This document shows positions 1 through 28,134 of a stretch of DNA of 61,153 nt, piece by piece (position 1 is the first letter of the stretch; each line of letters opens with the position of its first letter). Origin of the DNA: a virus; IMG/VR virus record IMGVR_UViG_3300033553_000801, positions 1 to 61,153 of that record; one strand, given 5' to 3'. The translations under genes and the position numbers were made by a program. The notes below the pieces were generated by a model. The model did no database searches. It was not told where the DNA came from and saw nothing but the letters and a program-made list of their open reading frames with translations.

Positions 1-1197
1 ATGCGCAACAAGCTGACCGCGATTGCAATCAAGAAGGCGCCTGACGGCAAGCTGGGTGACGGCGGCGGCCTGTCGCTCATCAAGAGCGGCAGCGCGGGCA
101 AGTGGGTCTATCGCTATACCCACCTGGGGCGGCGGCGCGACATGGGGCTCGGATCGTGGCCGGATCTTCCGTTGGCGGAAGCGCGGCGCCAGCGCGATCA
201 TTGGGCGTCTGTCGTTTCGGCCGGGAGTGATCCCATCGCGGCGCGGGAAGCGGAGCGTGCAGCACAGAAGGCCGAACAGGACCGCGCCGACCCCACATTC
301 GCGGATATGGTTCAGATCGTGTTCGAGGCCAAGCAGGCCGGCCTGCGTGGCGGCGGCACCCGCGGCCGCTGGCTGAGCCCCCTCGAACACCACGTTATCC
401 CGAAGATCGGGCGCAAGCGCATGTCTGAGATTACCAGAGGGGACGTCTACGACGCGATCAAGCCCATCTGGCGGGACAAGCACCCCACGGCCATGAAGGC
501 GGTGCAGCGCACGCGCATTGTGTTCACCGAGGCGCGCTACATGGGAATCGACTGCGACCCCTTCACCGTCGATGCTGCGAACCGGATGCTGGGCGAGGTC
601 AGGCACCAAACGAAGCACATAGCAGCGACGCCCTGGCAGGATATCCCGGCCCTATGGGATCGCCTCAATCCCGAATCGGCGGCCGGGCTGTGCCTGCGGT
701 GGATGATGCTGACGCTTGTGCGGTTCGACGGGTGCCGCGCTGCTCGCGTATCCGAGGTGGATGGCGATATCTGGATCGTGCCCGCCGATCGGGTGAAGGG
801 GCGCGAAGGCAAGGCCAGGGAATTCCGCGTGCCATTGTCGGGGCCCGCCCTTGAAATTGTCGAGGAAGCGCGCGCGGCCGGGCATGACCTGCTGTTTGCC
901 GGACATCGCGGTCAGCCCATCACGTCACGCGCGGCTGAGAAGCATCTGGATCGCTTGGGCGAGCCGGGGCGGCCCCATGGGTTTCGCACCAGCTTTCGCA
1001 CATGGGTCCAGGATACGGACGCCTGCCCCTGGGAGGTGTCGGAAACGATCCTCAATCACAGCATTGGCTCGACCGTCGAGCGCAGCTATGCGCGATCAGA
1101 CCTGCTTGAGCGCCGGCGGCCTGTCATGGAGGCGTGGGCCGGGCACATCGTCGGCGGCGAGCGCGGGGTTGTCGATCTCGATTCCATGCGCAACTGA
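1..1197 (+). CDS. int: Tyrosine site-specific integrase (P4/DUF4102 type)
   Basis: A 398-residue tyrosine recombinase expected to integrate and excise the phage at an att site. The N-terminal ~90 residues carry the KLGDGGGLSL-type arm-binding domain (DUF4102). The C-terminal catalytic set is visible: R241, K266, H326-x-x-R329 (HGFR), H353 and nucleophile Y363. Length is normal for the family. The ATG is base 1 of the window, so the promoter, ribosome site and any upstream att site are missing. It converges on the reverse transcriptase: its stop (1195-1197) and the RT stop (1198-1200) abut and form TGATCA. Confidence 0.93.
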   Translation: MRNKLTAIAIKKAPDGKLGDGGGLSLIKSGSAGKWVYRYTHLGRRRDMGLGSWPDLPLAEARRQRDHWASVVSAGSDPIAAREAERAAQKAEQDRADPTFADMVQIVFEAKQAGLRGGGTRGRWLSPLEHHVIPKIGRKRMSEITRGDVYDAIKPIWRDKHPTAMKAVQRTRIVFTEARYMGIDCDPFTVDAANRMLGEVRHQTKHIAATPWQDIPALWDRLNPESAAGLCLRWMMLTLVRFDGCRAARVSEVDGDIWIVPADRVKGREGKAREFRVPLSGPALEIVEEARAAGHDLLFAGHRGQPITSRAAEKHLDRLGEPGRPHGFRTSFRTWVQDTDACPWEVSETILNHSIGSTVERSYARSDLLERRRPVMEAWAGHIVGGERGVVDLDSMRN

Positions 1198-2274
1198 TCA
1201 CGTCCGGTCTCTCGACCTGCTCAGCGGCGGCGGCACGAAGGCAACGCCCCCGAGCACCTTGCGCCGCAGGTTGTAGGTGTCGGCGTGGCGCGCATGGCCG
1301 ATCCAGCTCATGATGACCGGGTCGATCTCGTCCCAGCTGATCAGGCCGCGATGATACTGCGAGGCCATCCGTTTCATCTTGCGGCGCATCCGGTTGATGC
1401 TGTCTTTTCGCAGGGCGCGGTGCGTTGGCCATATGCGGTAGCCGAGAAAATCCAGGGCGCGGCCGCCCTCTTTCCTGACTGGAAATATCTGCGTTTTGGA
1501 GTTGGTGCGCAGACCGAGTTCTGCCCACAGGAATCCTTCGATATCCCGCCTGGTCTCGTGCAGGTGATCCTTGTCGTGGTGAATGACGACAAAATCATCC
1601 ATGTAGCGCACATAGCGCGGCTCGCGCAGCGTGTGCTTCACGAAGTGATCCATCTCGTTGAGGTAGACGTTTGCGAATAGTTGGCTTGTCAGGTTGCCGA
1701 TCGGGATCCCGCGCGGCATGAGCGCGCCGTCGTCGGCGCTGCTTCCGATCACCTCTTTCAGCAGCCACAACGTGTCCGGGCAGGCGATGCGCCGACCCAG
1801 GATGCGCACGAGCGGGTCGTGGCACACCGATGGAAAGTATTTCGATATGTCGGCCTTGAGTGCAAACGCTTGACCGTGCTCCCTGATCGTCTTTCTGAGG
1901 TAGCCCTGCACGGTATCGGCGCCCTTGTGTGCGCCCTTGCCATGCCGGCAGGCAAACGACTGGTCGATGAACCGCGCTTCGAATATCGGCTCGATGACAC
2001 TGATCAACGCGTGCTGCACGACGCGATCCTTGAGCGGCAGCGATGCTATCTCCCGGCGCTTGGGTTCGTAGACGTGGAATCGGTGATAGGGGCCGGTGCG
2101 ATATGTCTTGTGGATCAGGCTTTCCTGTATTGCGATCAGGTTGGGTTCGAGGTCGGCCTGAAAGGTTGCCACGTCGCGCTGGCGGCGACGCCCTTTCGCC
2201 GTGCGCTCCCATGCGCGCACAAGCGTCTCGAAGCTGATGATGTCGGGCCACAGATTTCGGAAGGTCTTAGCCAT
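1198..2274 (-). CDS. Diversity-generating retroelement reverse transcriptase
   Basis: A 358-residue group-II-like reverse transcriptase that should copy the template-repeat RNA with adenine-specific errors. Visible motifs are the RT1 block (SLPLKDRVVQHAL), RT3 (ADISKYFPSV), the DGR-typical RT4 (GIPIGNLTSQLFAN), the catalytic YMDD at residues 224-227 and RT7 (LDFLGYRIW). Length matches DGR RTs, and no maturase or endonuclease domain follows. It is last in the minus-strand order target, avd, TR, RT. The ATG at 2274 lies 150 bp past the template repeat. Being next to avd and a TR/VR pair separates it from group II intron or retron RTs. Confidence 0.95.
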   Translation of the reverse strand: MAKTFRNLWPDIISFETLVRAWERTAKGRRRQRDVATFQADLEPNLIAIQESLIHKTYRTGPYHRFHVYEPKRREIASLPLKDRVVQHALISVIEPIFEARFIDQSFACRHGKGAHKGADTVQGYLRKTIREHGQAFALKADISKYFPSVCHDPLVRILGRRIACPDTLWLLKEVIGSSADDGALMPRGIPIGNLTSQLFANVYLNEMDHFVKHTLREPRYVRYMDDFVVIHHDKDHLHETRRDIEGFLWAELGLRTNSKTQIFPVRKEGGRALDFLGYRIWPTHRALRKDSINRMRRKMKRMASQYHRGLISWDEIDPVIMSWIGHARHADTYNLRRKVLGGVAFVPPPLSRSRDRT

Positions 2275-2424
2275 GATGGGGCGGCCGGGACGAGGGGTCG
2301 CCTGCGTGGCTACTGCGACGCCCCGGCCTGTTCATGTTTTTCGGCACTTGGCCGAGGATTGCGGGTCCTTTCGAGGGTGTTCTGAGCCGCCGCCCTTGAG
2401 CGACGGTTTTCTGACGGTCCCCGG

Positions 2425-2542
2425 AAGCGGGGCGAAAGCCGATGTTCGAGTTCGAGTTCGACCGGGCATTGTTCAGGTTCAGGGCAAAGACCCCGGCACT
2501 GGCGCCATTGTTCCAGTTGCCACCGCGGATCGGCAAACGCTC
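2425..2542 (-). repeat. DGR template repeat (TR)
   Basis: A 118-bp segment matching 2967-3084 at 107 of 118 positions. All 11 mismatches fall at plus-strand T, that is adenine in the coding sense, out of 22 such positions. In sense orientation it is rich in AAC codons (GGNWNNGASAGVFALNLNNA), the classic DGR template design. Its 5' end overlaps the avd stop codon (2541-2543). The 3' end holds the G/C-rich GGCTTTCGCCCCGCTT shared with VR, the expected initiation-of-mutagenic-homing segment. The open frame across it (2267-2557) is not a gene. Confidence 0.96.
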
Positions 2543-2918
2543 ATGCATGGCCCGCACCCCTTACCAGCGACTTGAACCAGCCGCCGATCATGCGTCCGAC
2601 CTCGTCTATGTGACGAGACCAGGTCTCATATTTCTTGATGTCGATATACCGCAGCGTGAAGGACGTTCTGACCTGTGAGCGCAGCAGGTCCAGCTCGGCG
2701 TCCAGATCCTGCATCGTCGTCTTTTTGTGATACCGCTTGTTGCAGATCACGATCAGGCGCAGCACACCCCACATCGCCTCGCGAATCTCCGCCGCCAGAA
2801 CATGTCGCTCGAACTTCGGAAACTGCCGCAGGGCCACATAGCCGTAGGCGATCATTTCCTCGCACTTCTGTCGGATTTTCAGGTCTTCCAATTTCAGCCT
2901 ATCACGGTATGGGCCCAC
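2541..2918 (-). CDS. avd: DGR accessory variability determinant (Avd, four-helix bundle)
   Basis: A 125-residue basic, helical protein of the bAvd family (EDLKIRQKCEEMIAYGY, FPKFERHVLAAEIREAM, then FTLRYIDIKKYETWSRHIDEV). Avd pentamers bind the RT and template RNA and are needed for mutagenic cDNA synthesis. The start is uncertain: GTG at 2918 is the longest reading, and TTG at 2891 is also possible because the family core begins near residue 10. The GTG lies inside a strong hairpin (2912-2933), which may limit translation. Its stop overlaps the start of TR. Confidence 0.9.
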   Translation of the reverse strand: MGPYRDRLKLEDLKIRQKCEEMIAYGYVALRQFPKFERHVLAAEIREAMWGVLRLIVICNKRYHKKTTMQDLDAELDLLRSQVRTSFTLRYIDIKKYETWSRHIDEVGRMIGGWFKSLVRGAGHA

Positions 2919-2933
2919 GCTATCGCGCGGGCC
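2912..2933 (-). other. Hairpin downstream of the DGR variable repeat
   Basis: The minus strand reads GGCCCGCGC-GATA-GCGUGGGCC: a 9-bp stem (one G-U) with a GATA tetraloop, 33 nt past the end of VR. DGRs such as Bordetella BPP-1 carry a short-stem, tetraloop hairpin or cruciform just after VR that promotes homing, so the position fits. It also covers the GTG proposed for avd. Confidence 0.6.
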
Positions 2934-2955
2934 TCAGATTTCAGGGGGTCGGATT

Positions 2956-3999
2956 TCAGATTACGAAAGCGGGGCGAAAGCCGATGCCCGAGATCGAGTA
3001 CGACCGGGCAATGTTCAGGTACAGGGCAAAGACCCCGGCACCGGCGCCATAGCTCCAGTCGCCACCGCGGACCGGCAAACGCTCCCCGGCCACGTTGATG
3101 TAGAAGCGGTCGCTCTCGATCGGTGCACCCGGCTGTATCAGCCCGTATTGCTTGAGAATCTGAAGCGCGGCCGTGGACACCGAGTTCGCCGTCATCGTGG
3201 AAAACGCCGCGCCGGAGCTGCACACCAGCGTGCCGGCCGCCGTGCCGGACGTGGCGTAGTGAACGGTGCCTGCGGTGCCGGGGGCGACCAGCGCGCCCGT
3301 GGCGGCATCCACCGCCTTCCAGGGTCCGCTGGCGCTCAGGTCGGTCGCTGACAGGACGGCATCGTTGTCCGCGATGATCTGGATTTCTCCGTCGACGATG
3401 CGCATGCCGGGCGCCCATTCCCACACATTGCCGTTGAGAAGCTGCACGCCCCACGGGGTTGGCGGGTAATTCCAGGTCACCGGGCCGCTGCCTGCGCGGA
3501 TCACCGTCGTCGTGCTGCCGTCGCCGGGGTCGCCGTTGTCGTCGACGCCGAACTCGGTGTCGTCGTTGTAGGCCCTGCCAGAATCATTATTCCCGCGCGG
3601 GAACCGGAAATCCGCACGCGCTTTCAGCGCGAGCGCCGCATACATCGGATTTGTCGCCACGCAGAAGCCCGCGCCGCTGTTGCGTGCCAGCGTTACGGCT
3701 TCGTCGTGGTCGATGCTGGTGCGCGGCACGAGGCCCGCCTGCGACACCATCTCGCCGCTCACCTCTGCCGCCGGGTGTACGCCGACCAAGATTTCATCCT
3801 TCGTCACGCCGTCAACGACGAAAGCCGGGTGCACGCCGGATCCTAGGCTCGCGTCAAGATCCTCGACGAGGAACTTCCGCAGCCGGTAGAAGTAGCTGGG
3901 CTGGCCTTTCGTCGTGAAGCGCACGGTCATGTCGCCGCCCGACATGGTTTCGACCTGCTTGCGCAGATCGGCTTGAATATCGACGCTGACGCTCATCAT
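2956..3999 (-). CDS. DGR target protein, C-type-lectin/FGE-sulfatase fold, probable tail-tip receptor binder
   Basis: A 347-residue protein whose C-terminal half has the formylglycine-generating-enzyme/C-type lectin signature GNVWEW (about residues 189-194) and ends in the variable repeat (about residues 306-345). Relative to the template, ten residues in VR differ, mostly at asparagines (to D, S, Y, I or G), plus S to G and I to V. This scaffold is the standard DGR display fold. Residues 1-110 resemble a virion-attachment part. It is the last tail gene, overlapping the upstream gene by ATGA at 3996-3999, so it most likely displays the variable surface at the fibre tip. The ligand cannot be told. 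Confidence 0.92.
   Translation of the reverse strand: MMSVSVDIQADLRKQVETMSGGDMTVRFTTKGQPSYFYRLRKFLVEDLDASLGSGVHPAFVVDGVTKDEILVGVHPAAEVSGEMVSQAGLVPRTSIDHDEAVTLARNSGAGFCVATNPMYAALALKARADFRFPRGNNDSGRAYNDDTEFGVDDNGDPGDGSTTTVIRAGSGPVTWNYPPTPWGVQLLNGNVWEWAPGMRIVDGEIQIIADNDAVLSATDLSASGPWKAVDAATGALVAPGTAGTVHYATSGTAAGTLVCSSGAAFSTMTANSVSTAALQILKQYGLIQPGAPIESDRFYINVAGERLPVRGGDWSYGAGAGVFALYLNIARSYSISGIGFRPAFVI
2967..3084 (-). repeat. DGR variable repeat (VR)
   Basis: The 3' end of the target gene, 118 bp paired with TR at a constant offset of 542 bp and no gaps. Differences lie at TR positions 2445, 2446, 2451, 2458, 2469, 2479, 2500, 2509, 2511, 2518 and 2530, all template adenines in sense. The first bases after the repeat diverge on both sides, which fixes its limits. 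Confidence 0.96.
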
Positions 4000-4325
4000 A
4001 CTTCTCCTGCTGTCGGATCAATCGGCGGATTTGCTGTGGCGAGATACGCGGAATAGACCAGCGCGTAGATTTCGCCCTGCGTTGTGGTCTGGCCCGTGTC
4101 GGCGCCGGTTTCCGGGTCGATGATCGGAATGACGGCGGCCGGATCGAATGCCAGTGGCAGCGGGGATGCAGGCATGTGCATGACTTGCCCCCCGTCCGTG
4201 CCGATGATCGTCTCCTGATGGAACGTCACTCGTGGCGTCTTGCCAAGCTGGTTGTCGATGATCACCTGCGGGCAGCGGGTGAAGCTTTCTCCCGCGATCG
4301 GTGTTTGGTTCAACTTGTAGGACAT
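3996..4325 (-). CDS. Small tail-region protein, unknown function
   Basis: A 109-residue soluble protein starting MSYKLNQTPIAGESFTRCPQ. The text resembles small proteins found beside tail-fibre genes in proteobacterial phages (reported query-like residues near VRFTFHQET/VTFHQE and a final PPIDPTAGE), but no domain is identified. It overlaps the DGR target start by 4 nt and follows the fibre gene at 4339 by 13 nt, so it is translationally coupled to the target. A role as tail-fibre chaperone or connector is possible but unproven. Confidence 0.75.
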   Translation of the reverse strand: MSYKLNQTPIAGESFTRCPQVIIDNQLGKTPRVTFHQETIIGTDGGQVMHMPASPLPLAFDPAAVIPIIDPETGADTGQTTTQGEIYALVYSAYLATANPPIDPTAGEV

Positions 4326-4338
4326 GATGATCTCCTGA

Positions 4339-4998
4339 TCAGGCTTGTGTTACGGTGCCGTAGACGGTGAGACCGGCGGATGTGAAGCGGACCACCTCTG
4401 TCCCGCCGATCGCAATGGACAGGGTGTCGGCGGCGGATGAATAGATACCGACCGTCCCGATGCGCAGCGCCGGGGCGTCAAGCGATCCGCCGGTCAGTTC
4501 GGTGCGACCGCCGTTGACTTGATCCGATACTTGGCCCAAGGCGGCCGCGAGGTTGAACAGGGCCAGCGTGGTGATCGTGTTCGCTTCCTGTGAGCCCGAC
4601 AGGCGCTCGATTTCGCGGTATGCTTGCCCGAACGCCGCGGAGAGTGTGCCGAGACCACCGTCAAGTTCTGGCAGGCCGGGAGCTGCAATGCTGCCAGTCA
4701 CCTTGACTGTGTCAAACACTGGATCAGTGCCGTAGGCAACTTGTTGGGCGTCCAGCAACGCCTGCTCGGCGCCGTCCTCGTGTTGCGATGCCAGCAACGC
4801 ATCCGCAGAAGTGCTGCTTGCATGACCCTGGGCGGCGTCACGGTAGGTCAGCGCGGTGTCACGGGCGGCCTGGGATGCATCACGGGCTGCTTGGCTGTCG
4901 GTTACCGAGGTGTCCAGCGTGGCTTTCTTCACGTTCACAGCAGCCGTCAGGCTGTCGACCGAAGTGGTCAGATTGGCAACTTCTTGTTCAACGGTCAT
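4339..4998 (-). CDS. Putative tail-fibre protein with N-terminal coiled coil
   Basis: A 219-residue protein. Residues 1-80 are a heptad-like, alanine-rich coil (EQEVANLTTSVDSLTAAV, then RDASQAARDTALTYRDAAQG), followed by a Gly/Ser/Thr-rich region ending in a short beta-rich part (SIAIGGTEVVRFTSAGLTVYG) typical of trimeric fibre tips. It sits between the larger alanine-rich fibre protein and the DGR target. Probably a trimeric fibre segment; assignment rests on composition. Confidence 0.7.
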   Translation of the reverse strand: MTVEQEVANLTTSVDSLTAAVNVKKATLDTSVTDSQAARDASQAARDTALTYRDAAQGHASSTSADALLASQHEDGAEQALLDAQQVAYGTDPVFDTVKVTGSIAAPGLPELDGGLGTLSAAFGQAYREIERLSGSQEANTITTLALFNLAAALGQVSDQVNGGRTELTGGSLDAPALRIGTVGIYSSAADTLSIAIGGTEVVRFTSAGLTVYGTVTQA

Positions 4999-5010: not shown

Positions 5011-6198
5011 TTACGAGAAAGCGTGCGCGTCGATGTAGCGGGTCTGGCTGTTGGTGAAGGCTGTGGCCATCTGGACGAGTTGGGGAGCGATGCTGTCATG
5101 GATCGCCTGCGTATCGTCCCGGTAGCCAAGGGCGGCCGTCTCGCTGGCCGCGGCATTGGTCTCGGATGTGGCAGCGCCGGTCTCAGCGGATTCCGCCGCG
5201 GTTTGCGCTGCCGCAGAAGCGGTCTGCGCTGCCTGGGCTGCATCTTTTGCCGCAACTGCGCCCGTCTCGGCAGTCTCCGCCCCGGTTCGCGCTATCTGCG
5301 CATTGGTCAAGGCGGTCTCGCTGGCAACCCGCGCAGTCTCCGCGTCGGTGGCTCTCTGGTCTGCCGTGATCGCGCTTGTATTCGCAGCGCTGGCATCTGC
5401 GGCAACACCAGACTCTGACGCTGCCGCTGCTGTAGCGCTGGCCGATGCCTCCCCGGCCTTGGTTGTGGCGGTGGCTTCCGCGGCCTCTGCGGCGGTTTGC
5501 GCATTCTGGGCGTTGAGCCTGTGGCCCGACGCCGAGTCCCGCGCGGCCTCCGATGCAGCCTGAGCCGTCTGGGCCCCCGTCTGAGCGGCCTCCGCTCCGG
5601 CCTGCGCGTCAACGGCGGCCACTTTTGCGGCGCTTGCTGCGCTCTTGTGCGCGTCAGCCGTCGTGGAGTGGGTGAAGGCATTGGACTCGGACTTCTCCGC
5701 CTCGCTCGCCGCCGTTTCGGCCCGCGTCGCGTCCGTGGCCGCCGATTGCTCGGACAGCGCAGCGTTGGCGGCGGCCGTCTCGGATGCGGTCTTTGCGGCC
5801 TCGGCATCACCCTTGTAGATGTTGGTCGTATCTCGCGCCGCGCGGGCGTCGATAACCGCCTGCTCGGCTGCATTGACGCTGGGCGGTGGCGGCAGATCCA
5901 TGGATTGCGACAGATAGGCGGTCGCGCTTTCAGGGACGGTTGCGAAGATCGACTGGCTGAACCCGCCCGCCTGCCACACGACCAACACGCGATAGCGTCC
6001 GGGCGTCAGGTCGATCGAGAAATCACCGTTGTCGTCCGATGTGACCGTGTGCCCGCCGGTCTGGTTCGCGCTCGGCAGGACAATCGCATCGCCGTCGGCG
6101 CCGATCTTCTGCGGATGCGGTGTGAAGGTCAGCGTTACCCCGGATTGCGCGCCGAGGCCGACGTCAACGGTGCTGCCCGTGATGGTGCATACGCTCAT
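5011..6198 (-). CDS. Alanine-rich tail-fibre protein
   Basis: 395 residues from the ATG at 6198, chosen because it overlaps the holin stop as ATGA; a start at 6219 would overlap it further. Residues 1-110 form a beta-rich domain that looks like a carboxypeptidase-regulatory/transthyretin-type fold (DDNGDFSIDLTPGRYRVLVV). The rest is a long Ala/Glu/Thr/Ser-rich heptad repeat (AAxxA, ETAAxxA), a trimeric coiled-coil shaft as in side-tail fibres. It lies between lysis genes and the DGR target, so it probably forms the fibre shaft. Confidence 0.8.
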   Translation of the reverse strand: MSVCTITGSTVDVGLGAQSGVTLTFTPHPQKIGADGDAIVLPSANQTGGHTVTSDDNGDFSIDLTPGRYRVLVVWQAGGFSQSIFATVPESATAYLSQSMDLPPPPSVNAAEQAVIDARAARDTTNIYKGDAEAAKTASETAAANAALSEQSAATDATRAETAASEAEKSESNAFTHSTTADAHKSAASAAKVAAVDAQAGAEAAQTGAQTAQAASEAARDSASGHRLNAQNAQTAAEAAEATATTKAGEASASATAAAASESGVAADASAANTSAITADQRATDAETARVASETALTNAQIARTGAETAETGAVAAKDAAQAAQTASAAAQTAAESAETGAATSETNAAASETAALGYRDDTQAIHDSIAPQLVQMATAFTNSQTRYIDAHAFS

Positions 6199-6776
6199 CG
6201 GCCGGACTCCCTGCGCCAATCTCGAACTGCCGGGTTATCACTCGCGGCGCTTTCTACGGTTTCCAGGGTTACCTTGGCGTCAGATCCGGTATCGGCGGCG
6301 CCCGGCGTGTCGCTGTTCAGGGATCGCAGCGCCTCAATATCCTCGACCACCTGCGGGGTTCGCGCGGCGACGGCCGCCATCGCCTTCCCGGCCTGTAGGT
6401 GCTTGGCAGAATACCTCGCGCCGAAGTAAAAGGTGATGATCGCGCCCAACAGGAGCCACAACTGGTCAGGCACGAGCGCAAGGCCGCGCATCCGTGACGA
6501 AAACCACACGGGATCGACCATCGCCGCAACGAACAGACCGATCGTCCCAAGCGCCATTGCGGGACGCGGGATACGGTTGATGCCGTCGATCAGGCTGTTG
6601 AACCACCCGCCGGAGTTGTCGAACTCGGCCGCCATCTGTTCGAGCGCGGCGCGCTGTGCGCCTGCCTCGCGCTGATCTGCGGCCTCCGCGTTCGGCCGAA
6701 AGGTCTCGACCGTTTCGGTGATGACGTTGCGCCCGCCGCCGAACAGCGCGCCGATAAGTTTTCCAATCAGCCCCAT
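6195..6776 (-). CDS. Holin of the 3-TM GTA type
   Basis: A 193-residue membrane protein beginning MGLIGKLIGALFGGG and carrying FRPNAEAA, an INRIPRPAMALGTIGLFV segment and a second hydrophobic stretch (LWLLLGAIITFYFGARY). This pattern matches the three-transmembrane holin known from Rhodobacterales gene transfer agents. It should permeabilise the inner membrane for the endolysin. It overlaps the endolysin gene by 10 nt and the fibre gene by 4 nt. The charged, disordered C-terminal tail (about 60 residues) is longer than the membrane part. Confidence 0.85.
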   Translation of the reverse strand: MGLIGKLIGALFGGGRNVITETVETFRPNAEAADQREAGAQRAALEQMAAEFDNSGGWFNSLIDGINRIPRPAMALGTIGLFVAAMVDPVWFSSRMRGLALVPDQLWLLLGAIITFYFGARYSAKHLQAGKAMAAVAARTPQVVEDIEALRSLNSDTPGAADTGSDAKVTLETVESAASDNPAVRDWRRESGR

Positions 6777-7486: not shown

Positions 7487-10400
7487 TCAATCGTAGATCG
7501 GATCGCGCGTCGTGCTGCGGATCGTGTAATCGAGGCGCGGGTTAAGTTGGGCACCCTGCACATTGCGCTGGCTCGCGCGCATACCGCCCCGGATCGACTG
7601 CTTGAGCGTTTGCACCGTGATCGGATAGGTCGGGTGCTTGCTGTTGAAGTCGACGATCAGATCGACAATGGCCGGCGTAAGCCCGTCGCCTTCGCGGCGC
7701 GACTTGCGCACAGCGGCCAGGATATCGCCCCGCTCGTCCATGATCCGCCTTTCTCGCGACTTCATGCGCGAGTTCAGGTCGTAACGCTCGGACAAGCGCG
7801 CCGGGGTGAAGCCCACTGCCTGTGCCAGAAGCTCGCCGACCCTGAACTCGTCAATGATTGGATCGCCCCGGTAGGTCTCCGCGCCCTCGACCCAATAGCG
7901 TCCCGTCTGCATGATGTCGTTGATGAACTTGGGCGTCATCTTCTCGACGCCTCTCCAAACCTCGCCGTCCTTAACCATGCTGACGCCGCGCCAGATGTTT
8001 TCCCCGATGCCCGGCACTGCGCCCAGCATCTGCCGAATCCAGTAGTTGTATTCTTCTTCGCCTTCCAACTCGCGCCAGGGCTTGCGGAACCACAGTTCCG
8101 GCATGCCGATCCGGTTGGTCAGGTCAATTCCGGCCCAATAGCCGGGGGCGCCGTTCAGAATCATGCCGGCCGCATCCTTGGGAAGGTAGTTGAGAAGCGC
8201 CGTCTCCATCGCTTCCTCGACATCGTCGGACCCGCCCGAGAAAAACAGCCCCAGAAGCCCCGTGATCAGCGCATAGCCCCAGGTGCCCTTGACGCCGGCG
8301 TGGAACATCATCGAACCCGTGATCCCGGCCAGTTGCGCCATCGCTTCCTGCCGCTCGGACTTCGTCTTGCCTCGCATCATCTGATGCGTGTCGCGGAAAA
8401 GGCGCCACAGCATGTTGATCTGGAAGTTTCTGAAAACCATCGCGACGCGCATGTAGTCGTTCTGCAAAAGGCGTGGCCTGGCGGTATTTTGGTAGTCGAA
8501 ATGCGTCTTCCAGGTCAGGTCACCGGCCTTCTGAATTGCGGCCTCCCGGTCCAGTCCCTTATCTTTGGCCATGCGGTATGCGGCGAGGAATGTCACCTCG
8601 CGGTTCATACGCTCAGCGTGGTGGAAGAACCAACTGACCTTCTCCATGATCATCGTGCGCGTGGCGCTATACTCCACCCCCGTCTCGCCGACACCGGCCA
8701 GATCGTGCGACTGGCTCTTGTCCACCACGCCGCGGCTATATGCATCGTGCATGGCAGCGCGCTCGTCGTCGGTCAGGCGCGAACTGTCAGCCGCATGCCC
8801 CTTGCCGGTGGTGAAGTCGGCCATGGCGCGCGTCAGTTCCCTGGCGGCCTTCCTGATCCCGCCCTTGCCATAGAACGCGCCGAGTATCGGCGTGCCCACA
8901 ACGCTGGTCTGGGACACGTTCACAAGAGCGGCAGCCGGCGTCATGCCGAGGTAGTAGACAAACGCCGCCGAGGTCGCGCCCTGCGCCCACGCGGCGCCCT
9001 GCGGGTTCATCACATACTCGTGCCGGCGATCCATTTCACGCACGACAAGCCCGTCGCGCACCGGATCATCGGAGCGGCGCGCCTCGTCTGCGGCGACTTC
9101 CAGCGCCTCACTCATGTCGAGGCTGTATTTCAGGCGTGCAAGCTGGTGCGCGCCGTGAAACATCTGGGTGCCGAAGGCGCGGAATGCGTCACCGGAATAG
9201 CCTGGCGTGCCCTTCCGGTGCATGCGGTTCTTGCGCAGCGACATGTCGGGCAAGGTTTCCAGCCACCGCTGCCAGATCGCGTCCATCACTGTGTTGTCGG
9301 CGCTGATTTCCGACAGCAGCCCCTCGACATCTGCGACAAAGCCGGGGTCGACCATGTCGCGCATGTTCGTCTCGCTCATCACCCCGACTTCGACGTCGTA
9401 GCCCTCGCGCCGCATGCGCGCGGCTTCTTCCTGCTGATCTGCGACCTTCTCGAACTTCGAGAAACTCACGATCTTCCCGCTCTCGTCGCGCGAGGTCACA
9501 TAGAGATCACCGAACCTGGACAGCGGGAAGTACGGCCCCTCGATCCTGTTGCTTTCGAACTTCTTGCGCAGCTGGGCGATGCGCGCTTGCTTTGAAAGGC
9601 GCGTCCTCAACTTGGCCTTGCTCAAGGCGGCGTTGGCTTCCTCGATGGCTTGATCCTTCTCCGCCCCATCGAGCCCGTCGTCCTTGATGCGCTCGATTTC
9701 GCGTTCGTGGGCGCGTTCTGCGCGACGCACAGCCACGGTCATGGCCTTTGCCGCCTGTTCCTCGATCGCCTTCTCGAACTGCTCGGCCAGTTTGCGATAT
9801 TCATCGCGGACAGTCCTGAACATGGCCTGGAATTCCTGCGGCAGGCTGTCAAACGCCTCCCGAAGTCTCGCGTAGTCAGCCTTTCGCCTGATTTCGCGGT
9901 TCTGGCGCGCCTTGGCGGCCTTGTAGGCGACGCTGTTCGGGTTGTGCGTCTCCAGAATCTCGCTGTCGCGCGCCTCGACGACGCTCATGTAGGGCTTGGA
10001 TGGATCTTGCCCGGCAATCGTCGAGTCGTGCATCAGGTCCATCATGCGCGCGTTGTTCGGCCTGTCTCCGCGCTTCCAAATCTTGTCGCCGGATATCAGG
10101 CGCCGCCATTTCTGCGCGATCTCGTCCGTATCGCCGTGGCGCTCGTTGCGCAGTGTGTCCATGGCTTCTTTCAGACGCAGGTATTTCTGCGCCGAAGGCA
10201 GGTTCTTGCCGAGTTCGGTGAACAGGGGGCGGCCGGGAACAAGCGCCAGGGCATTTGCGCTGTCGCCGGTCTTCATCCCGGCCATCGCCTGCGTCATGAT
10301 GTTGCCGAGAAGTTTCTTGCGACCGCGTTCCGCGTTTGCGTCATAGACGGGTTCGACGTTTGCCGGATGCGCCGGATCGCGCCGACTGGCTCGCATGCCG

Positions 10401-13400
10401 CCACCCCCGCCGGGTCCGTCCGGACCGCGCCCGCCGACCTCGCCGCCGTTGATGCGCCCGAACACGTCCGCGGCCGTGTCCGCCCCGCTCAGCCGCAGCG
10501 CCTTGGTGATGGCTTGGATCACGTCGCCCAGCTTGGCCAGCGCGCGCCCGACCGGGGTTGCCGTGTCGCGCTTTGCGCCCCACTCGCGGAACATTTCGGC
10601 GACGACTTCCTCGATCTGCGCGGTTGCGTTCAAATCCGGATAGAGCCGCTTGATCTTGTCGCGCAGGTGCTTGTTCGCAGGGCTGCGCGCCGCGCGCACC
10701 AGCGTTTGCCATTCCGCCTTCGTGAACAGGCCATGCGAACCACCCCACAGGCTGGAGTCGCGCAGGGCGTGGATGATTTCGTGACGCAGCGCGCCAATGG
10801 CGCCGCCGACCCCGGTTGCGTCCGAGGCCACGCCGATCGTCTCGTCGAGGAAATACCCGTCGAGCGCAGACATGCCCGGATAGTCCGCGTCGATCGGCCC
10901 ATCCGACACTCGCAGCTTGATCCGCGACGACAGGCCGACGCGCTTCAATTCAGCCCGCAGGCGCCCCTTGAGCCCGCGCACCTCGGCGGGTTCCACCACC
11001 GTGCGCTTGACCGGTTCGGGCGCGATGGCTACGTTGAGGGTGTCGGGGCTGACTTCCAATACCGGGTCGATGTGCGTCTCACCACGCCTCGCCGTCGATT
11101 TCTTCGAAAATCGGGCCCCGACACTCATATCCTTTGAGAGATCGTAGTGCATGCGGCCGTTGGAATCCTCGCGCACCGTAACCACAACGTCCTTGGGCTG
11201 ACCTGCCAGCATCACCCGCGCGGCAAACTTGTGTACTGCTTTCATCTGCTGGCGGCCGTAGATGTCTGGCATGGTGGACACCAGTGTGCCGTGTGTCATG
11301 ACTTGCTCCAGCGCCGGAATCAGTCGCACAAGATCCTCGCCCTTCGCGTTGACGCTCTTGGCCGCACCCCGCCGGGTAAAGCCGATCTCCCAGCCCGTCT
11401 CACGGTTGGTGATGCGCTTGCCGACCAGGTTGTCGCGATACCATCTGATGCCAGCGGCGCGCAGCGCGCGCATGCCGTCGCCCTTCGGCTCGATCTCCTT
11501 GCCGGTCAGGGATGTGACGGGCTCGCGCCGCGATGCCTTCGGCGCGGGCTTGTCGGCGTCGATGATTGCCTGAGCTTCATTCTTGTGGGCATCGGCAATG
11601 AACTCCGACCCAAGGCTCATTTCGTATTCAGACAGAACCTTGCCCAGCACATCGCGCGACTCGATGGACTTCTTGAACGGCCCGGAGCGGGTGGAAAAGT
11701 CGCCCAGGATTTCGCGCACCGTCGGGTTGAAGATGTACGGTTTGTGGCCGCGCTTCTTGTCGATCCTGATTTCAAACTCGCCGCGCGAGCCGGGCGTGCG
11801 CTGCACCGTCATGACCTCGTCAGCCGTTTTCAGCAGCGCCGGCGCGTTCGACGTGCCCGCCTCGCTCACGAACTTGATGGCCTGATCGACGCTCGTGAAC
11901 GAACGCGGCGCATCGGCCATCGCCTGCTCGGCAGAAAAGTCCTTGGGAAGCATCAGACCTTGATCGAGAGACCCGTCGTCTCGGCGGAACATCACGATCT
12001 GGCCGCGCCCCTTGAACTTGGAGAAGGCGTTGATGACGTTGCCGGTCACGACCTCACGCTTTTCGCGCGCCTCGGCCTGGCCATTTTCGAACGCTTTGCG
12101 CACTGTTTCTTCGCGGGCTCCGGTGATCGAGTAGTCATCTGCGTCAGCGTCGGTGAGGCGCGACATGGATACCGTGATCTGCCGCCCCGGCGATGCAAGC
12201 GCGATCCTGACGCTGATCTTCGACGCCGCTGTCGGGTTGTCGGATACCCTTGAGAGGTCGGCGCCAAGTGCCATGGCGTAGACGGTATCCTGCGTCTGAC
12301 CGTTTTGCAGGAACGACACCATCATAGGGCGACCGGGCGCAAACTGACTGATGGCGCTCTTGATGGCGCGGAACTTGTCTTGCTGGGTGGCGGTCGCCGC
12401 GTCGTGTCGGTTTATCAGGTCGGCCACCTTGTCCTTCTGCTTTTCGGTCTTGGCTTGTTTTTGCCGCTCGACAAGTTCCTCCCGGCGCTTCTTGTTGGCG
12501 TCGATCATGTCGGAATAGAGCCGGTCCATCTTTTCAATCTGATCGTCGACATGTGCGTCGATGCTCTTTCCGGCGCGCGCTTCGGCTATCAGTTCATCCA
12601 GCTTTTCGGGCGTGTAGGGCTTGCCCAGAATCTTGGCGTCGACCGCCTCCAGAATGGTGTCCCGGCCGAACGCGCTTTCCGGTGCGACGCCTTCTTCGAT
12701 CACCTGTGACGACTCGGTTTTCGCGTCGATTTCCACGACCTTCGCTTCCAGGTCGTTCGCGCCGATGCTGTCGAGTTCGTCGATGTAGTTCTTGTATGCC
12801 TGCTCGATATCGACGTAGATTTCTTCCGTCCGCTTGGGCCCCAGGACAATCAGCTTGCCCGTCAATTTGGCCGCGATACCACCTGATGCGCCGGCGGTCT
12901 TCGGCGCCGCAACGCCCGTGGCGACGCTGACGTCGGGGTTATCGAGAAGATATTGGCGAACAACCTTGTCGCCATGCTTGTTCATGAAGTCCGGCGCATC
13001 CTCCATCGTCACGGCGGATTTCTTGTTGGCCGTGGTCGAGGCGTTCAGGCTCGCCAGCTTTTTCATCAGCAGCGCGGCCGGTCGCTTTTCGACTGCCAGA
13101 TCAGAGACCGAAATGTAATACTCTGGCAGCTTGGTCTGGCCGGTCCTGTTGATCCGGCCCAGCATCTGCATGAACACGTCAATGTTGTTGTCGGGCTGCA
13201 AGATCAGCATGGCGCGCACCTTGCCGTCGTTATCCGCCGCATCGGTCGCATGCATGGAAAAGCCAGTTGCGCCCGACCTGTTGATGATCAGGCCATCATA
13301 CTCGCCGCTGTTGTAGCCGTTCATGGTCCGCTTTTTCGACGCCTGGTCGTTCTTGCGCGTCTCCAGAACACCGTTGCGGATTTGCTTGCTTCGCCCCGTG

Positions 13401-16400
13401 ATTTCACCGACGTTGATGCCGGCCGCCTCCATCTTGTCGCGGATCGCGTCGATGGGTGAGCCGGGAAGGTCGCCCAGGTCGATTTCCGCGATCATCTTTT
13501 CGGCGGCGCGAACCTCGTCGAGGGCAATTCTCCCGCCAAGCCGCTCGATATCGCCATCGGTCAGGAAGTAGTACGACTTGTTCTGGTCCTCATCCTTGAT
13601 CGTGATCCGGCGCAGCCTGTCGAGATATCTGCGCAGAATCTCGTTGAACGGAACGTCAAGGCTGTCACCGACCGACAGGTCGCGATCATTGATGTAATCC
13701 TCGACGATCGAGGCGTTCGTGTTCGACAGCGCGATGATCGGTTTCTTGCCCTGCTTGAACAGGTCGATTGCACGATCGGCAACCTCACCGGTCTTTACGG
13801 ACAAAAGGAGTTGGGCAACCACGTTGTGCATGGTCGATGCGAAGTTGGTCGACGACGCGCCGGCTTCGCCTATGGCTGCATCACGCGCAGCGCCGGAGCC
13901 CTCGGCCATGAGTTCCTCGGCATAGGCTTCGCGAATTCCCTCCATGAAGCCGCTGTCGAGTTTGAAAATCTCGCGCACAGCCTTGGCGCCGTTTTCAGCG
14001 GCAATGGGATCGCTGGACAGGACGTCCATTTCCATGCTGATGCCTTCATAGGTCCGCTCACGGCGAACATACTGACCGTCCTGCACCAGCGCCGCGCTGA
14101 TGACCTGCTGCATGGGGACGCCGCCCTGCTCGACAGCCTGCTCAAGCTTCTCCGCGCTTGGCAGCGCATTGCGCAGGTTCGTCGACGTGTAGAGCGACAT
14201 GACGGCCGAGTTTTTCGCGAAGGTCGCCGACGAGAACATCTTTCCATTCGGAGACGCCGCCAGAAGCTTTCGAATGAACACGGATCGAGGCTCCGGGTCT
14301 CCTTCCTTCTTCGGCTGTGCATTTGCGGTCCCGCCGGCTTCATGGCTTTCGTCCAGGATGAACATCGCGTTCGGCGCGATCGACTGCATGGCGCGCATGC
14401 GGTTCGTCACATTGCCTTTGTCCGTGGTCATCTGGTCGTAGGTCGTGAACAGGACGCGCTTACCCTCCGGCAAAGATCCTTCGCGCAGCATGGCGCGAAT
14501 CCATGCGTCCTGCTCCGCGCTCGTTCCCGAAGAAATGGTATCGCCCGACTTGGAACTGACCGGCACCGCCTTGCCGGCGCGCAGACTGTTGTTCGTGACC
14601 ATCACCTCGGACTGGATGTCGCCCATGCCGATATCGCGCAGATCGCGCATCATGTCCCCGTAGAGGCCGGGGTTGACCGTGAAAAACACCGGCGTCTTGC
14701 CCTGACGCAGCGCGTAGCGGATCATGCCGGCCACGATCCGGCCCTTGCCGACTCCCGTCTGGTCGCCGATGATGAAACCGAGTCCGTCCCCCACATTGTC
14801 GATTGCGAGCGCAATGGCGTCGACCTGCTCGGCCGAGAAATAGCCGCGCTTTTCGGGCGTTCCCAGCATATCGTCGACGTCATAGTCGAGTTCGCGCGCG
14901 ACGAACTGGTCGATATCGCCCACCCGCGCTTCAAGCGACCCAAGCGCCCGCCCGACCGAGTCGGCAACATTCTTCGGGACAAGGGTGCCGACCGCGAATT
15001 GAGCGTTCGACCGCGGCGTGTATTGGACCTGGAAGTCGGTTTCGGCTTCGGTATTGTTGCGCTCGACCTTTGCCCGAGTGTCCTTGGGCTTTACGGCGTC
15101 GGGTAGATCGCCGCGAGAAGGTCGTTGAACTGCATCAGGCTGAGCGGTTCCCGCGTCTCCGGTTCTTCCTTGATTTTCTCCGGGTTGATCGGGAACAGAT
15201 GAAGGTTCAGCCCCTGCGTCCTGAGCGTTTCGGACCGCCTCGCCAGCATTTCCGGTATCTCCCGGTCGCTGCTGGGCGTCAGGCCGTCCCATTTGGACAT
15301 CCGCTCCTGCGCCATCGCCCACGGGTCTCCGCCCATTTCCTTGGTCTCGCGCACCATCCGGGCGAACCGACGCCTCAGATGATCCAGATACTGTTCCTCG
15401 GTCAGTGGTTTGCTGGGGGGGGGCATCAGAACCCCCGCTATCCGCGGATCGCTGTCCCCTGGGGTCCAGGCTATCTTGCTGTCCATCAATCCGACCTTTC
15501 AGCTGATCCCACGCATTATACAGCACAGGCGCCTCTTTCATAGGCAGAGATTTTCCGCTCTTGCCGCGCCCCTCGATCACGACGACGTCGACAGGCCACC
15601 CCGCGCCTTGCCGCGAATACATGTCGCCGTCGAGCGTGAAGTGCTCGGTCACGTTGTAGTTGTCGTATAGCTTCTTCCAGAAGGCGCGGCGCTTGGGCGC
15701 CCGGTAGCCGGTCTTGCGCGCGTCAGCGTCGCCCTGGTGGCCGCCGACGATCAACACGGCGCGGCCATCGTCCTTCATCGCGGACAGGGCACGCATCGAA
15801 ATGGCGTGGTCAATCTCTCCGGTCGTGCCGGTGCTACCCTCGAACGCCCACTCCTTGTTGCGGCCGTCCTCGCCCTTCACTTTGCCGAACGGCGGGTTGG
15901 CAATGACAGCATCCTGACCGTTCGGCGGAGTGTCCTCCATCGCATCGGTCTGGCGAATGTCGCCCTCGCTGTAGAGGCGTTGCAGCAGGTCGGATCGGCT
16001 GCCCTGCAATTCATTGGCCGTGACGTTGGCAGGCGTGGCTTCGATCAGCAACATGCCGGTGCCCGCGCTCGGCTCATAAACGCTGGACTGCGCGTCGATC
16101 CCCGCGAGGCGGGAGGCCAGATAGGCCATCGGGGCCGGTGTCGAATAGGCTTGATACTGGATCGACGACGATGTGCGCTGCGCAAGCTTGGGCTGGCGCT
16201 TGTAGAGCGCGACCAGTTCATCGAACTTCTGCGCCTCGGTCTTGCCGGTGCGCACGATATCGCGCGCCGCCTGCACAACGCCACTCTCCATGGCTTCCTC
16301 GACCATCTTCAAGTCGGCTTCGCTCAGGTCGCGGCCAAGAAACTCGGACGCCTCTTTGCGCGCGGCAACGATGGTCGAGTATTCAGCGCCATCGCCAAGC

Positions 16401-19400
16401 CGCTTCTGGAAGTGCTCGGCCAGCCGCACGCTTTCAGGGCGGGTGGCCGCTGCCGGCTCCGGTCTGGCTCCGGTCTGGCTCCGGTCTGGCTCCGGCTCCG
16501 CCGCCTGCTTGTCGCGCATGTCGCGCACGATCTGCATCACCTCTGCCGACGATTGCATGTCACCGACGTCCTGGCCGTCGAGATCCATGTCGTCGCGCAG
16601 TTGGTTGTAGGCGTTGCGCGCCACCGGCTGGGCCTGCTCGAAGGTCAGCCCGGCGCGATCCATCAGCGCCTTGATGAAGTCGGAGAACTGCCGGCGACCG
16701 GCGCGGATGTAGAGACGCCCGATCTTGTAAGCGAGTTCGACAAGCTTCGGGTCAAGCCCGCTGCTCGTCTGGTTCTTCATGATGCCAGACAGTTCCGCTT
16801 CAAGCGCGGCCAGTTCCGCGTTTTCCTCGGCGGTAAGGCCGCTCATCCCCTCGGGGGCGGCGCTTCCCTGACTCGGCGCTGGGTCTCCCGTATTCTTCTT
16901 CGTCGCAAGGTCGCGGGCGCGCTTTATTGCTGCGGCCTCTCCATCCGACCCTACAGCATAGGCAATGCCACTGAACCCGGCGCGCCCCACGCTGTCACGG
17001 ACCCCCCAAACAATGCCGGCAACTGGAATTTTACGGCCGCCTACAGTGACGGTCCTGGCAAAGTCTTGTGCGGGCGGCGGCGTTTCGCGCCATACCCTGA
17101 ACTCGCCCATCTCAAAATCCTGGAAGGATGCGCCATCCAAAATGCCGGACGCATCGTCAATCGCAAGACCTCGCCGCGTTGCAAATTCCACATGTGACGA
17201 ATTGGCTTCCTGTTGCGTCACCGCCTCACCCTGCCCCGCCTCGGGCTCAGTGGTGGGTGTGGGGGCGTCACGCTCCGCGTCCTCCTGCTGGGGCGCGGCG
17301 TCGGGCCGGGCGCTCTTTTGCTGCGGCTCGCCGCGCTCCGCGGCCTTCTTCCCGTCGCTCCCGACCAAGTTCACCATCACGCGCGGGACGGTAGGCTGAT
17401 CCGGCGCTGTCGCAGCGGCCTTGCTGCCCTCGTCATATCCGGCCAGCCAATCCTTCGCGTTTTTGCCACGTTCATTTGTGAAATATGACGGTAGTTCACG
17501 GGCTTCCCCGCTTTCCCCAGCCTTGCGCCCCGCAGCGTAATGAGGCCCCCGGTCGTCAGTTGTGGTGATGCGCCCTGTTGCGGCCTCCTTGTCCTGCCGC
17601 TTGGCCTTGGGCGTGATCGGCTTTTTCGTGTCGCTCTCCAGCCACGCATCGAACTCTGGAACGCTCATCTTGCGAATGCCGCCCAGGCGCTGCTGTCCCT
17701 TGCCGTCGCTGAACCCGGCCTTGTAGGTCTCGGCCGCCTGCGTCGCGTCATTGAAGCCCAGCATCACCTTGTGCTCATCGAAGCGCCCGGTATCCGCGTC
17801 CATCTGATCCACCACCCAGACCGATTCAGAGTCCGGGTTGTCGCCCATGTAGAAATCGACGTGATCGCCATCCGCGCCCTCGGTGCGAAGGATGCGGCCG
17901 TAGTGGGCGGGCATTTCAACTTCCCACGCGGTTTTCCCATCGGGGCCGACCTTGCTGCGTGTCGATCCCTTGCGGTTCTCGATGGACAGGGTTCGACCTT
18001 GCCATTCGGTCTTTCCGGTCTTGTAGTTTTCGGCCTCGGCCTGTGCCGGCGTCGGGTTGGGGTCGGTTTTCGCGGCCGCCGCCTCGATCTCGCCCTCCTG
18101 CCCTTCGCCACGCTCTTTTTCTTTCGCCTCATTGCGGCGACGCTTGCGGTCCTTGCGGATCGCGGCGCGCACCTTCTCCTGATCGACGTCGGGCTCGCCT
18201 TGGAAGATCACCCGGCCATCGGGATCGCGCACCGTGGTCATGTCCGCGTCGCGTGTGTCCTGGTAGCCGTCCTTGGTGGTGTGGATTTTGCCCGTCGGCT
18301 TGGCCGTCTGCTCTGGAGCGAACATGTCGTCCTGCGCGCGGGCGCCGTCGTCGAACAGCCCGCCCTCCGGGGGCGCCTCCTGACCGCCGCGCATGGGGCG
18401 CTGTGTGCCAGCCTGCGCGCGGTCGCCATCCGTCACCGGAGTAACGCCGGGGATCAGAGATTGATCGCCTTCGGGGGTGCGCTCCGTGGCTGAGGCACTC
18501 TGGTCGTCCGCGGTTACTTCAGATCGAGCAGCGGCTTCTTGCTCTCCAAGTGCGCCAACATCTTCAACTGACGCTCGGCCTCCGCCTTCTCGGCCTTGCT
18601 GGCCTGCGGATTGTCCAGCGTTGCCTGCGCCTTCTGCCGCGTCTTGCTGCTGACGCGCTCGCGGAATGTCTTGCTCGCCGAACGGGGGAGCGGAATCCGG
18701 GTCTTGCCGGGTGTCTGCGGTCGCTGGGCCATCTTCAACCTCTCGTTCGAGTATTCTCCATAGCACATCTTCGACGATGCCGCCATCGCGCTCAAGCGTG
18801 TCGAACGCCTCCGCCCGCTCGGCGTCGGTCAGAGAAAATCCGCCTTCAACCTCTGTCTGGCGAAGGCTGGCACCAATGGTGTCGACGCGCTCGTCCGGCG
18901 TTGCGAAGTCGTGTTCCGGGTGCGGGATGATCAGGCCGAAGTCATTTATTTGGTTCTGGTCCGCCTCGATCAGTCCGGTCTCGTCGACGTCGATGCCTTG
19001 CGCGCGCGCCTCGTCGGACCACTGGCGCGCTTCTTTCTCCTGTTGCAGGTCGCGCTGCGTCTGGTCCTGCACCGGCTCGCCGGCGGCCTCCCTGGCGATC
19101 GCGTCAATCACGCCCTGGCGGGACAGGTATTCGCCGTCGCGGCCAACGATATCGGCATATTCGCCCCAATCGCCGGCCACCAGGTTGTCGACCTCTTTCG
19201 CGCCGCCATGGCGGAACAGACCCGGCATGCTTTGCGGCGTTACGCCGATGTGGTTCAGTTCGCGAGCGAACTCCGAGTCCGGGTCGATCCCGCCCAGGCG
19301 GCTATTGATCAGGTTGGTAAATGGCCGCTTTTGAAGCCGCACGGGGCCGCTGGGCGCCCTGCCGGCCATCGTGCTGGCGTTCCCGCCGGCCGATGTCCCG

Positions 19401-26811: not shown

Positions 26812-28134
26812 CTACCTGCGCAGTTCGATTACGACCAACTCGATATCATCGACCGTTGGCGATCCATTTGCGTTAGCGTCGTTTGCTATAAGCTGAACAG
26901 ATTGCCCACCACTAACCGATGTCGTCGTGCTAATGAAATGGCTGCCGTTAGTTTTCCACAGCTCTACACCATCGACTTCACATGATATGTAGACGTTGGA
27001 CGATCCACCTGGGGTGGACACGTTTTTGATAGTGTAGTTTGCCAATATCAAAAGAGGGTAGCCACCCAGACCGGTAATCCAGACTGTGATCAGCCCACCC
27101 ATCCCGCTTTCAGGCTCAGTTCCTGACTCTGATTTTGTCGCTGCGTTGGTCGTCAGGATTTGTGACGTCACGCCGCCAGCCTTGAGCGTCAGATTGCCAT
27201 TTACATCGGTATCGAGCGTGGAATTGTCGATGACAAGCTTATCGACCGTCACCTCTCCTGCCCCGATCTTGTCGGCGGTGATCTCCCCGGCCCCGATCTT
27301 GTCGGCCGTAATGGCGCCGGCGGCGATATTATTAGCTTTAACCTCACCAGCACCAATTTTGGCAGCTGTGATGGCGCCTGCACTAAGGTGTTGTGTGTAG
27401 ACGGTCCCGTCCAAAAGAATGCGATCGGCTGTCATTCTGACGGCGCTGGCGGCGCCATTTATCGGATCATCAGCCGCTACCAGTTCCAGCTCTGCTGTGG
27501 CGGAGCCCGCAACAGTTCGAAGCGTATAGGTGGCCGCCTGGTAGCCCTCGATCGTGGCGATCGCGTTTTTGCTTTCGGTGACCTGCGCCTCAGCCGATGA
27601 CAGGTTTGCAGAAACCGTCGATATGTCTTGAGAAAGCGCGGTGTCCGCGTCTGCACGCGCTATGCTCTCATTTGTAATATCCGCTTCGGCCTGATCGACG
27701 CGCGCGGTGACGGCCGTCACATCGGATGCGATGGCTGTGTCGCCATCTGTGCGGGCTATGGTTTCGGCCGTAATGTCCGCTTCGGCCTGATCGACGCGCA
27801 CGTTGACATTGGCAATCTCACCTTCACGCACGGTTGTTTCGGCGTCCAGGGCGCCATCAAGCCTATCTGCCTCGTTATTGATGAACGTATTGACGCTGTC
27901 GATAAGCTGGTTGATATCGCGGATGGTGTCGGTATTGCCGACAGCGCCATCCAGGTCGCGCCCGCTCGCACTCCCGACAAGCTTGTCGGCCAGCTTGGTG
28001 CCAATGAGTTTCTGCGCGATCTTCTCGGCCAGGCCGTCGAGTTCCTTCCACAGCACGGCCCGGTCGCCGGGACTGCCCCGCTGGCCGCCGAGGGTCTCGA
28101 CATCCCTCTGTGTTCTGTCGCGCCGAATAGCCAT
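26812..28134 (-). CDS. Putative tail-fibre/tip protein with repeats
   Basis: 440 residues. An N-terminal helical part is followed by repeats: VDQAEADIT (two near-identical blocks), then five or more copies of an AGAITADKIGAGE-type repeat (about residues 250-300), common in tail-fibre and tail-tip C-termini. The end is a beta-rich domain (ITVWITGLGGYPLLIL, NVYISCEVDGVELWK). Position after the tail tubular genes suggests a fibre or tip attached to the tail. Confidence 0.75.
   Translation of the reverse strand: MAIRRDRTQRDVETLGGQRGSPGDRAVLWKELDGLAEKIAQKLIGTKLADKLVGSASGRDLDGAVGNTDTIRDINQLIDSVNTFINNEADRLDGALDAETTVREGEIANVNVRVDQAEADITAETIARTDGDTAIASDVTAVTARVDQAEADITNESIARADADTALSQDISTVSANLSSAEAQVTESKNAIATIEGYQAATYTLRTVAGSATAELELVAADDPINGAASAVRMTADRILLDGTVYTQHLSAGAITAAKIGAGEVKANNIAAGAITADKIGAGEITADKIGAGEVTVDKLVIDNSTLDTDVNGNLTLKAGGVTSQILTTNAATKSESGTEPESGMGGLITVWITGLGGYPLLILANYTIKNVSTPGGSSNVYISCEVDGVELWKTNGSHFISTTTSVSGGQSVQLIANDANANGSPTVDDIELVVIELRR

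Follow-up and report, generated by a model that had tools for sequence, protein, structure and literature searches.

The window, by which we mean the whole 61,153-nt stretch of viral DNA analysed here (IMG/VR record IMGVR_UViG_3300033553_000801), carries the components of a diversity-generating retroelement (DGR) close to its first position:

1198-2274, minus strand: DGR reverse transcriptase (RT), 358 aa (PF00078, 3.9e-18)
2387-2406, minus strand: hairpin CCGTCGC-TCAAGG-GCGGCGG in the TR-RT spacer, with a TCAAGG loop
2425-2542, minus strand: template repeat (TR), 118 bp, which starts at the avd stop codon
2541-2918, minus strand: avd, accessory variability determinant, 125 aa (NF033474, PF22296)
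2912-2933, minus strand: hairpin/cruciform GGCCCGCGC-GATA-GCGTGGGCC, with a 9-bp stem (one G-T pair) and a GATA loop
2956-3999, minus strand: target, a 347-aa FGE-type C-type-lectin variable protein, TaqVP-like
2967-3084, minus strand: variable repeat (VR), spanning target codons 306-345
2967-2986, minus strand: unchanged 3' end of VR, the probable initiation of mutagenic homing (IMH) region

TR and VR form a gap-free alignment of 118 bp, and on either side of it their similarity stops abruptly. All 11 differences lie at adenines of the coding (minus) strand, that is, T on the plus strand, exactly as an earlier note on this DNA had claimed; TR has 22 adenines, and the probability that 11 random mismatches would all hit them is 7.4e-10. 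The changes include A-to-G, A-to-T and A-to-C. Over the last 20 nt of VR there are zero substitutions relative to TR, and directly 3' of this segment the TR sequence departs. Ten target codons are altered (6 AAC, 2 AAT, 1 ATC and 1 AGT), so that the description of the changed codons as mostly Asn is accurate for 8 of the 10; the residues at these positions are V310, D314, S316, Y317, G320, Y327, I330, Y334, I336 and G338. About 1e13 protein variants are reachable via adenine-containing codons. The earlier note had placed a complete DGR at 2425-3084: the DGR stands, but that span runs from TR to VR only, the cassette proper occupying 1198-3999 and the functional module extending to about 5 kb. 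Two scans of viral contigs with degenerate TR/VR patterns gave zero matches and no variant of the window locus.

We assembled relatives (loci L018-L143) from RT and target searches and located their repeats by unsupervised search. L145 was left out as independent evidence; it is probably the same as contig C79, described below, because the VR and TR coordinates are nearly equal. Across 118 related adenine-type TR/VR pairs, 1367 of 1474 mismatches lie at TR adenines, adenine being 22% of TR, although this total is somewhat favoured because pairs were retained if at least 60% of their mismatches fell on one common base (only 9 pairs of another kind passed the filter). The substitutions were A-to-G in 686 cases, A-to-T in 375 and A-to-C in 306. 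Four contigs with different metagenome accessions (L067-L070), whose RT is 73% and whose target is 71-73% identical to those of the window, have one identical TR and four VRs. Pairwise comparison of L067, L068 and L069 gives 4-8 differing sites across 11-12 kb of flanking sequence versus 13-15 in the 119-bp VR, with 12-15 of the latter at TR adenines; for L070 there are about 50 flank differences over 7 kb and 13-15 in VR. Taken over the four contigs, 17 of 19 variable VR sites are TR adenines. The population check called for in the earlier note thus came out, in this lineage, as it had anticipated. With four natural VRs over one TR, the activity of the L067-L070 lineage is directly visible. 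We considered whether TR and VR might simply be duplicated sequences that have since drifted apart through point mutation, or through gene conversion without RT. Such a duplication can yield gapless repeats, but it is contradicted by the restriction of every window difference to adenines, by the presence of all three kinds of substitution, by the repetition of the pattern in the 118 related pairs and by the adjoining DGR RT and Avd, and we regard it as scarcely credible.

The RT has an intact YMDD active site and IGNLTSQ motif, as read from the translation, and its best solved relative is 8ub7 ('Reverse transcriptase', 3.9e-67). In related loci, too, TR/VR pairs are situated beside the RT. A defence-RT identity was considered with PADLOC models and rejected, since the RT matches there were generic only. 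Avd matches NF033474 (DivGenRetAVD) at 2.1e-37 and 127.6 bits, with a cut-off of 80, and PF22296 (bAvd) at 5.5e-31. The two genes flank TR, one on either side, in line with the adjacency that had been asserted for them. Of 88 distinct relatives, 34 have a hairpin with a T[CT]ANGG loop, like that in the TR-RT spacer, no more than 150 nt beyond the 3' end of TR and mostly about 22-30 nt from it; such a hairpin turns up in 0.2% of shuffles and never 3' of VR. It probably belongs to the TR RNA, the molecule that recruits RT-Avd. An Rfam search of the window gave no match.

A different hairpin follows VR. Retrohoming in BPP-1 requires a hairpin with a 7-10-bp GC-rich stem and a GRNA loop, located 4-34 bp from VR (Guo et al. 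2011, PMC3240598). The GATA-loop hairpin of the window, with its 9-bp stem, lies 33 bp 3' of VR (z -2.2 as ssDNA) and so is within the known ranges. GRNA hairpins with at least 6 Watson-Crick pairs were found in 58 of 90 distinct VR downstream sequences from relatives, but in only 0.08% of shuffles and in 2 cases downstream of TR. In an alignment of 33 hairpins, 92.6% of cells pair, a percentage biased upwards because the rows were selected for possessing the hairpin; the informative part is the stem diversity, with 71 cells that change on both sides and a stem covariation of 0.704 versus 0.200 in shuffles and at most 0.17 when the alignment is slid. Between VR and the hairpin (2934-2966, minus strand), the window and many relatives contain a repeated short motif, CTGAAATC / CCTGAAATCTGA.

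The target is closest to the Thermus aquaticus variable protein TaqVP (PDB 5VF4), not to Bordetella Mtd. It matches 5vf4 by sequence at 9.4e-72, and an AlphaFold2 model built with 40 window and locus sequences (pLDDT 94.9) matches it in Foldseek with E 8e-40 and a TM-score of 0.90. Hence, the C-type-lectin fold claimed for this protein is well founded. The model fits single-domain TaqVP over its whole length and fits Mtd weakly (TM about 0.30). In the sequence alignment, codon 310 (ATC), one of the variable ones, falls opposite variable residue I344 of TaqVP. The target had no Pfam match; it matches phrog_2889 at 9.5e-111, a family annotated as 'unknown function', and beside this its C-terminus has a weaker match to a tail protein. 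The target was sought in 297 further genomes from the host's family and found in none, which leaves no sister prophage for direct population comparison.

Three genes of the same strand adjoin the target:

3996-4325, minus strand: p109, a small protein adjoining the target (37-64% identity in L018 and L064-L071)
4339-4998, minus strand: p219, a fibre protein with a conserved C-terminal cap at about residues 111-219 (cap 55-66% in L064-L066)
5011-6219, minus strand: p402, an Ala-rich fibre/shaft protein with an N-terminal CarboxypepD_reg-like domain

For p402 the match to PF13620 (3.4e-5) is below the Pfam cut-off, and that to phrog_8780, a minor tail protein, is 7.9e-5. In L064 and L065 the counterparts of p402 and p219 form one fibre gene of 430-471 aa with the same C-terminal cap (about 105 residues), and the N-terminal part of p402 matches the N-terminus of the fused gene in L065. 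The cap, p109, target, Avd, TR and RT remain together across L064-L071. Two of these records (L064 and L071) encode a Mu-type transposase, and L065 is a Bcep22-like phage. Podoviral phages carry this cassette and so do Mu-like ones, which suggests that it is mobile as a unit; its presence in L065, a second Bcep22-like contig, indicates that it is not a one-off. The simplest reading of this conservation and synteny is that unrelated phages have exchanged the tip module in its entirety. Whether the unit of exchange is larger than the DGR we judge evenly balanced: podoviral and Mu-like phages may pass an entire fibre tip to one another by recombination inside the fibre gene, a self-diversifying and portable unit made up of cap, p109, target, Avd, TR and RT. 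If so, unrelated virions would have one evolvable receptor-binding plug-in in common. The locus is a clear case of a single cassette common to unrelated phage types.

Judged by its sequence, the phage that carries the DGR is a complete podoviral prophage of Bcep22-like type, which has a tRNA-Thr gene as its integration site. The features that place it are:

1-1197, plus strand: tyrosine integrase (PF13356, PF22022, PF00589)
7487-21310, minus strand: giant protein of 4607 aa in a single open frame, DarB-like by position and size
32403-33506, minus strand: major capsid protein, Bcep22-like (phrog_334, 7.8e-120)

The integrase lies 149 bp from the tRNA-Thr gene, which contains attL; a tRNA search inside the window found none. 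The 3' end of the tRNA-Thr gene holds one copy of a 19-bp direct repeat, CTCTCCAGCAGCACCATAC; the other copy is at window position 61403, slightly beyond the end of the window. Between these att repeats, which are 61.57 kb apart, lie integrase, DGR, lysis, structural and helicase genes. Just inside attR is a small helix-turn-helix gene, excisionase-like by sequence (L017:219-412). The capsid protein is 60.5% identical to that of BcepIL02 and 66.9% to that of Itty13, and the portal, also of the Bcep22-like group, shows 50.6% identity, in support of the probable podoviral carrier of the earlier note. Bcep22-like phages have genomes of about 60-64 kb and a giant DarB-like protein of about 4500 aa (4515 aa in the JC1/Bcep22 homologue; PMC9144972); the prophage has 61.57 kb and 4607 aa. 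The structural genes include a tail-fibre-like gene (phrog_892; 26812-28134, minus strand), and because this gene is separate, the phage may have two kinds of fibre. We found no earlier report of a DGR in Bcep22-like podoviruses in the literature searched, where the one paper to name both DGRs and Bcep22 was on P2-like phages; hence, a full DGR is here added to a group for which no earlier report was found. Four findings go beyond the earlier note: the hairpin with a GRNA loop, the ends of the complete prophage, the VR variation among relatives and the second DGR, described below.

A DGR that formerly worked could now be silent in the prophage, for example through lack of expression or damage to the prophage, and the source is indeed a draft genome of 98 contigs that is 88% complete. 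Nevertheless, every one of RT, Avd, target, TR, IMH and hairpin is intact, the prophage has both att repeats, an integrase and late genes, and relatives diversify in nature. We therefore consider silence unlikely.

The same genome contains a second DGR, on contig C79 (G000:C79), in a Mu-like prophage with MuA, sheath and baseplate genes:

L011:9301-12184: second DGR, local part
L012:17379-18620: second DGR, remote target

Its RT is 64%, its Avd 70% and its TR 83% identical to those of the window. The TR differs from the local VR at 15 positions, 14 of them at A, and from the remote VR at 11 positions over 105 bp; the remote target, a protein of up to 413 aa, is encoded close to MuA near the transposase end, at a distance of about 26 kb. 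The remote VR is followed by a hairpin, CTGCCGG-TCCG-CCGGCAG, just downstream (minus strand) of L012:17379, with a loop of TCCG rather than GRNA; the same hairpin occurs in a separate contig, L146, downstream of position 3228. One host thus carries podoviral and Mu-like versions of the DGR. Two homologous DGRs in one genome provide a natural test of whether a DGR acts on another phage's target. At discriminating non-A sites, VR1 agrees with TR1 at 21 of 21 and VR2 with TR2 at 18 of 19, the last base being the one mismatch. Each VR therefore goes with its own TR, and nothing points to cross-homing.

The remote target of the Mu-like prophage, situated beside the transposase end and not in the tail genes, bears on another alternative, namely that the window DGR works but that its target is not receptor-binding, being for instance a lysogenic surface protein or an FGE-type enzyme. 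The FGE-type lectin fold also occurs in enzymes, and phrog_2889 is without assigned function. Against this, the window target lies just downstream of a fibre gene with a cassette-conserved C-terminal cap, many of its viral fold matches are tail collar or fibre proteins, and Mtd provides a precedent. We consider a target of this other kind improbable, slightly more so than a silent DGR.

We conclude that the locus is best explained, with a probability of about 95%, as a complete, apparently functional phage-borne DGR diversifying a TaqVP-like target, which is probably at the fibre end. The TR/VR signature, an RT and Avd of DGR families and a lectin-fold target with VR at its 3' end substantiate the DGR identity first proposed. 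VR diversification of the kind expected from RT-dependent homing, with differences nearly all at TR adenines, is seen between the close relatives L067-L070, a lineage other than that of the window copy; for the window copy itself we infer current activity, the timing of transcription, display on the tail and an effect on host range. Transcription of the late operon of the prophage would run across target, avd, TR and RT. Aided by Avd, RT would then copy the TR RNA into cDNA, misincorporating opposite template adenines, and the cDNA would replace VR at the target 3' end, guided by the common 3' end (IMH) and assisted by the hairpin with the GATA loop, 33 bp beyond VR. TR would be left untouched, so that diversification could be repeated. 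The variable residues of the target, ten of which are changed here, would form a binding surface. Gene context and homology suggest a tail-tip location for the target, probably at the end of the p402/p219 tail fibre, where it probably recognises host bacteria and where its variation would alter the host surface bound.

Comparison with the BPP-1 DGR (mtd-avd-TR-brt) supports the earlier description of the locus as BPP-1-like with another target architecture. The order of target with VR, avd, TR and RT is the same, as are the adenine-only TR/VR differences, Avd, the RT (41% identical to BPP-1 Brt), the GRNA-loop hairpin 3' of VR and the position of the cassette close to the attachment site of a podovirus. 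The target differs, being trimeric multi-domain Mtd in BPP-1 and a TaqVP-type single-domain protein in the window, with 12-13% identity in the structure match. In addition, the BPP-1 hairpin is adjacent to VR whereas that of the window is 33 bp off, and the backbone of the window phage is Bcep22-like, Bordetella phages not being among the groups named for the capsid and portal matches. The Thermus aquaticus TaqVP DGR (PMC6328139) has the same target fold, a related target sequence (39-40% identity in the fold alignment) and VR at the C-terminus, in a different phage and host.

The Bcep22-like L065 (IMG/VR contig 3300038696_000641) is also close and has the same cassette, with 61% identity in the capsid, 50% in the giant protein (its C-terminal part) and 77% in RT; it differs in that fibre and cap are in one gene and in that holin and muramidase were not found between the giant protein and the fibre. 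DGRs of Mu-like phages include those of the IMG/VR contig L064 and of Pseudoalteromonas ACA1 and BalMu-1. L064 is 81% identical to the window in RT, 90% in Avd, 68% in the target, 57% in p109 and 66% in the fibre cap, and its MuA transposase is 59% identical to that of the second prophage. The carrier of the L064-type Mu-like cassette is a transposable phage, in contrast to the tRNA-integrating podovirus of the window.
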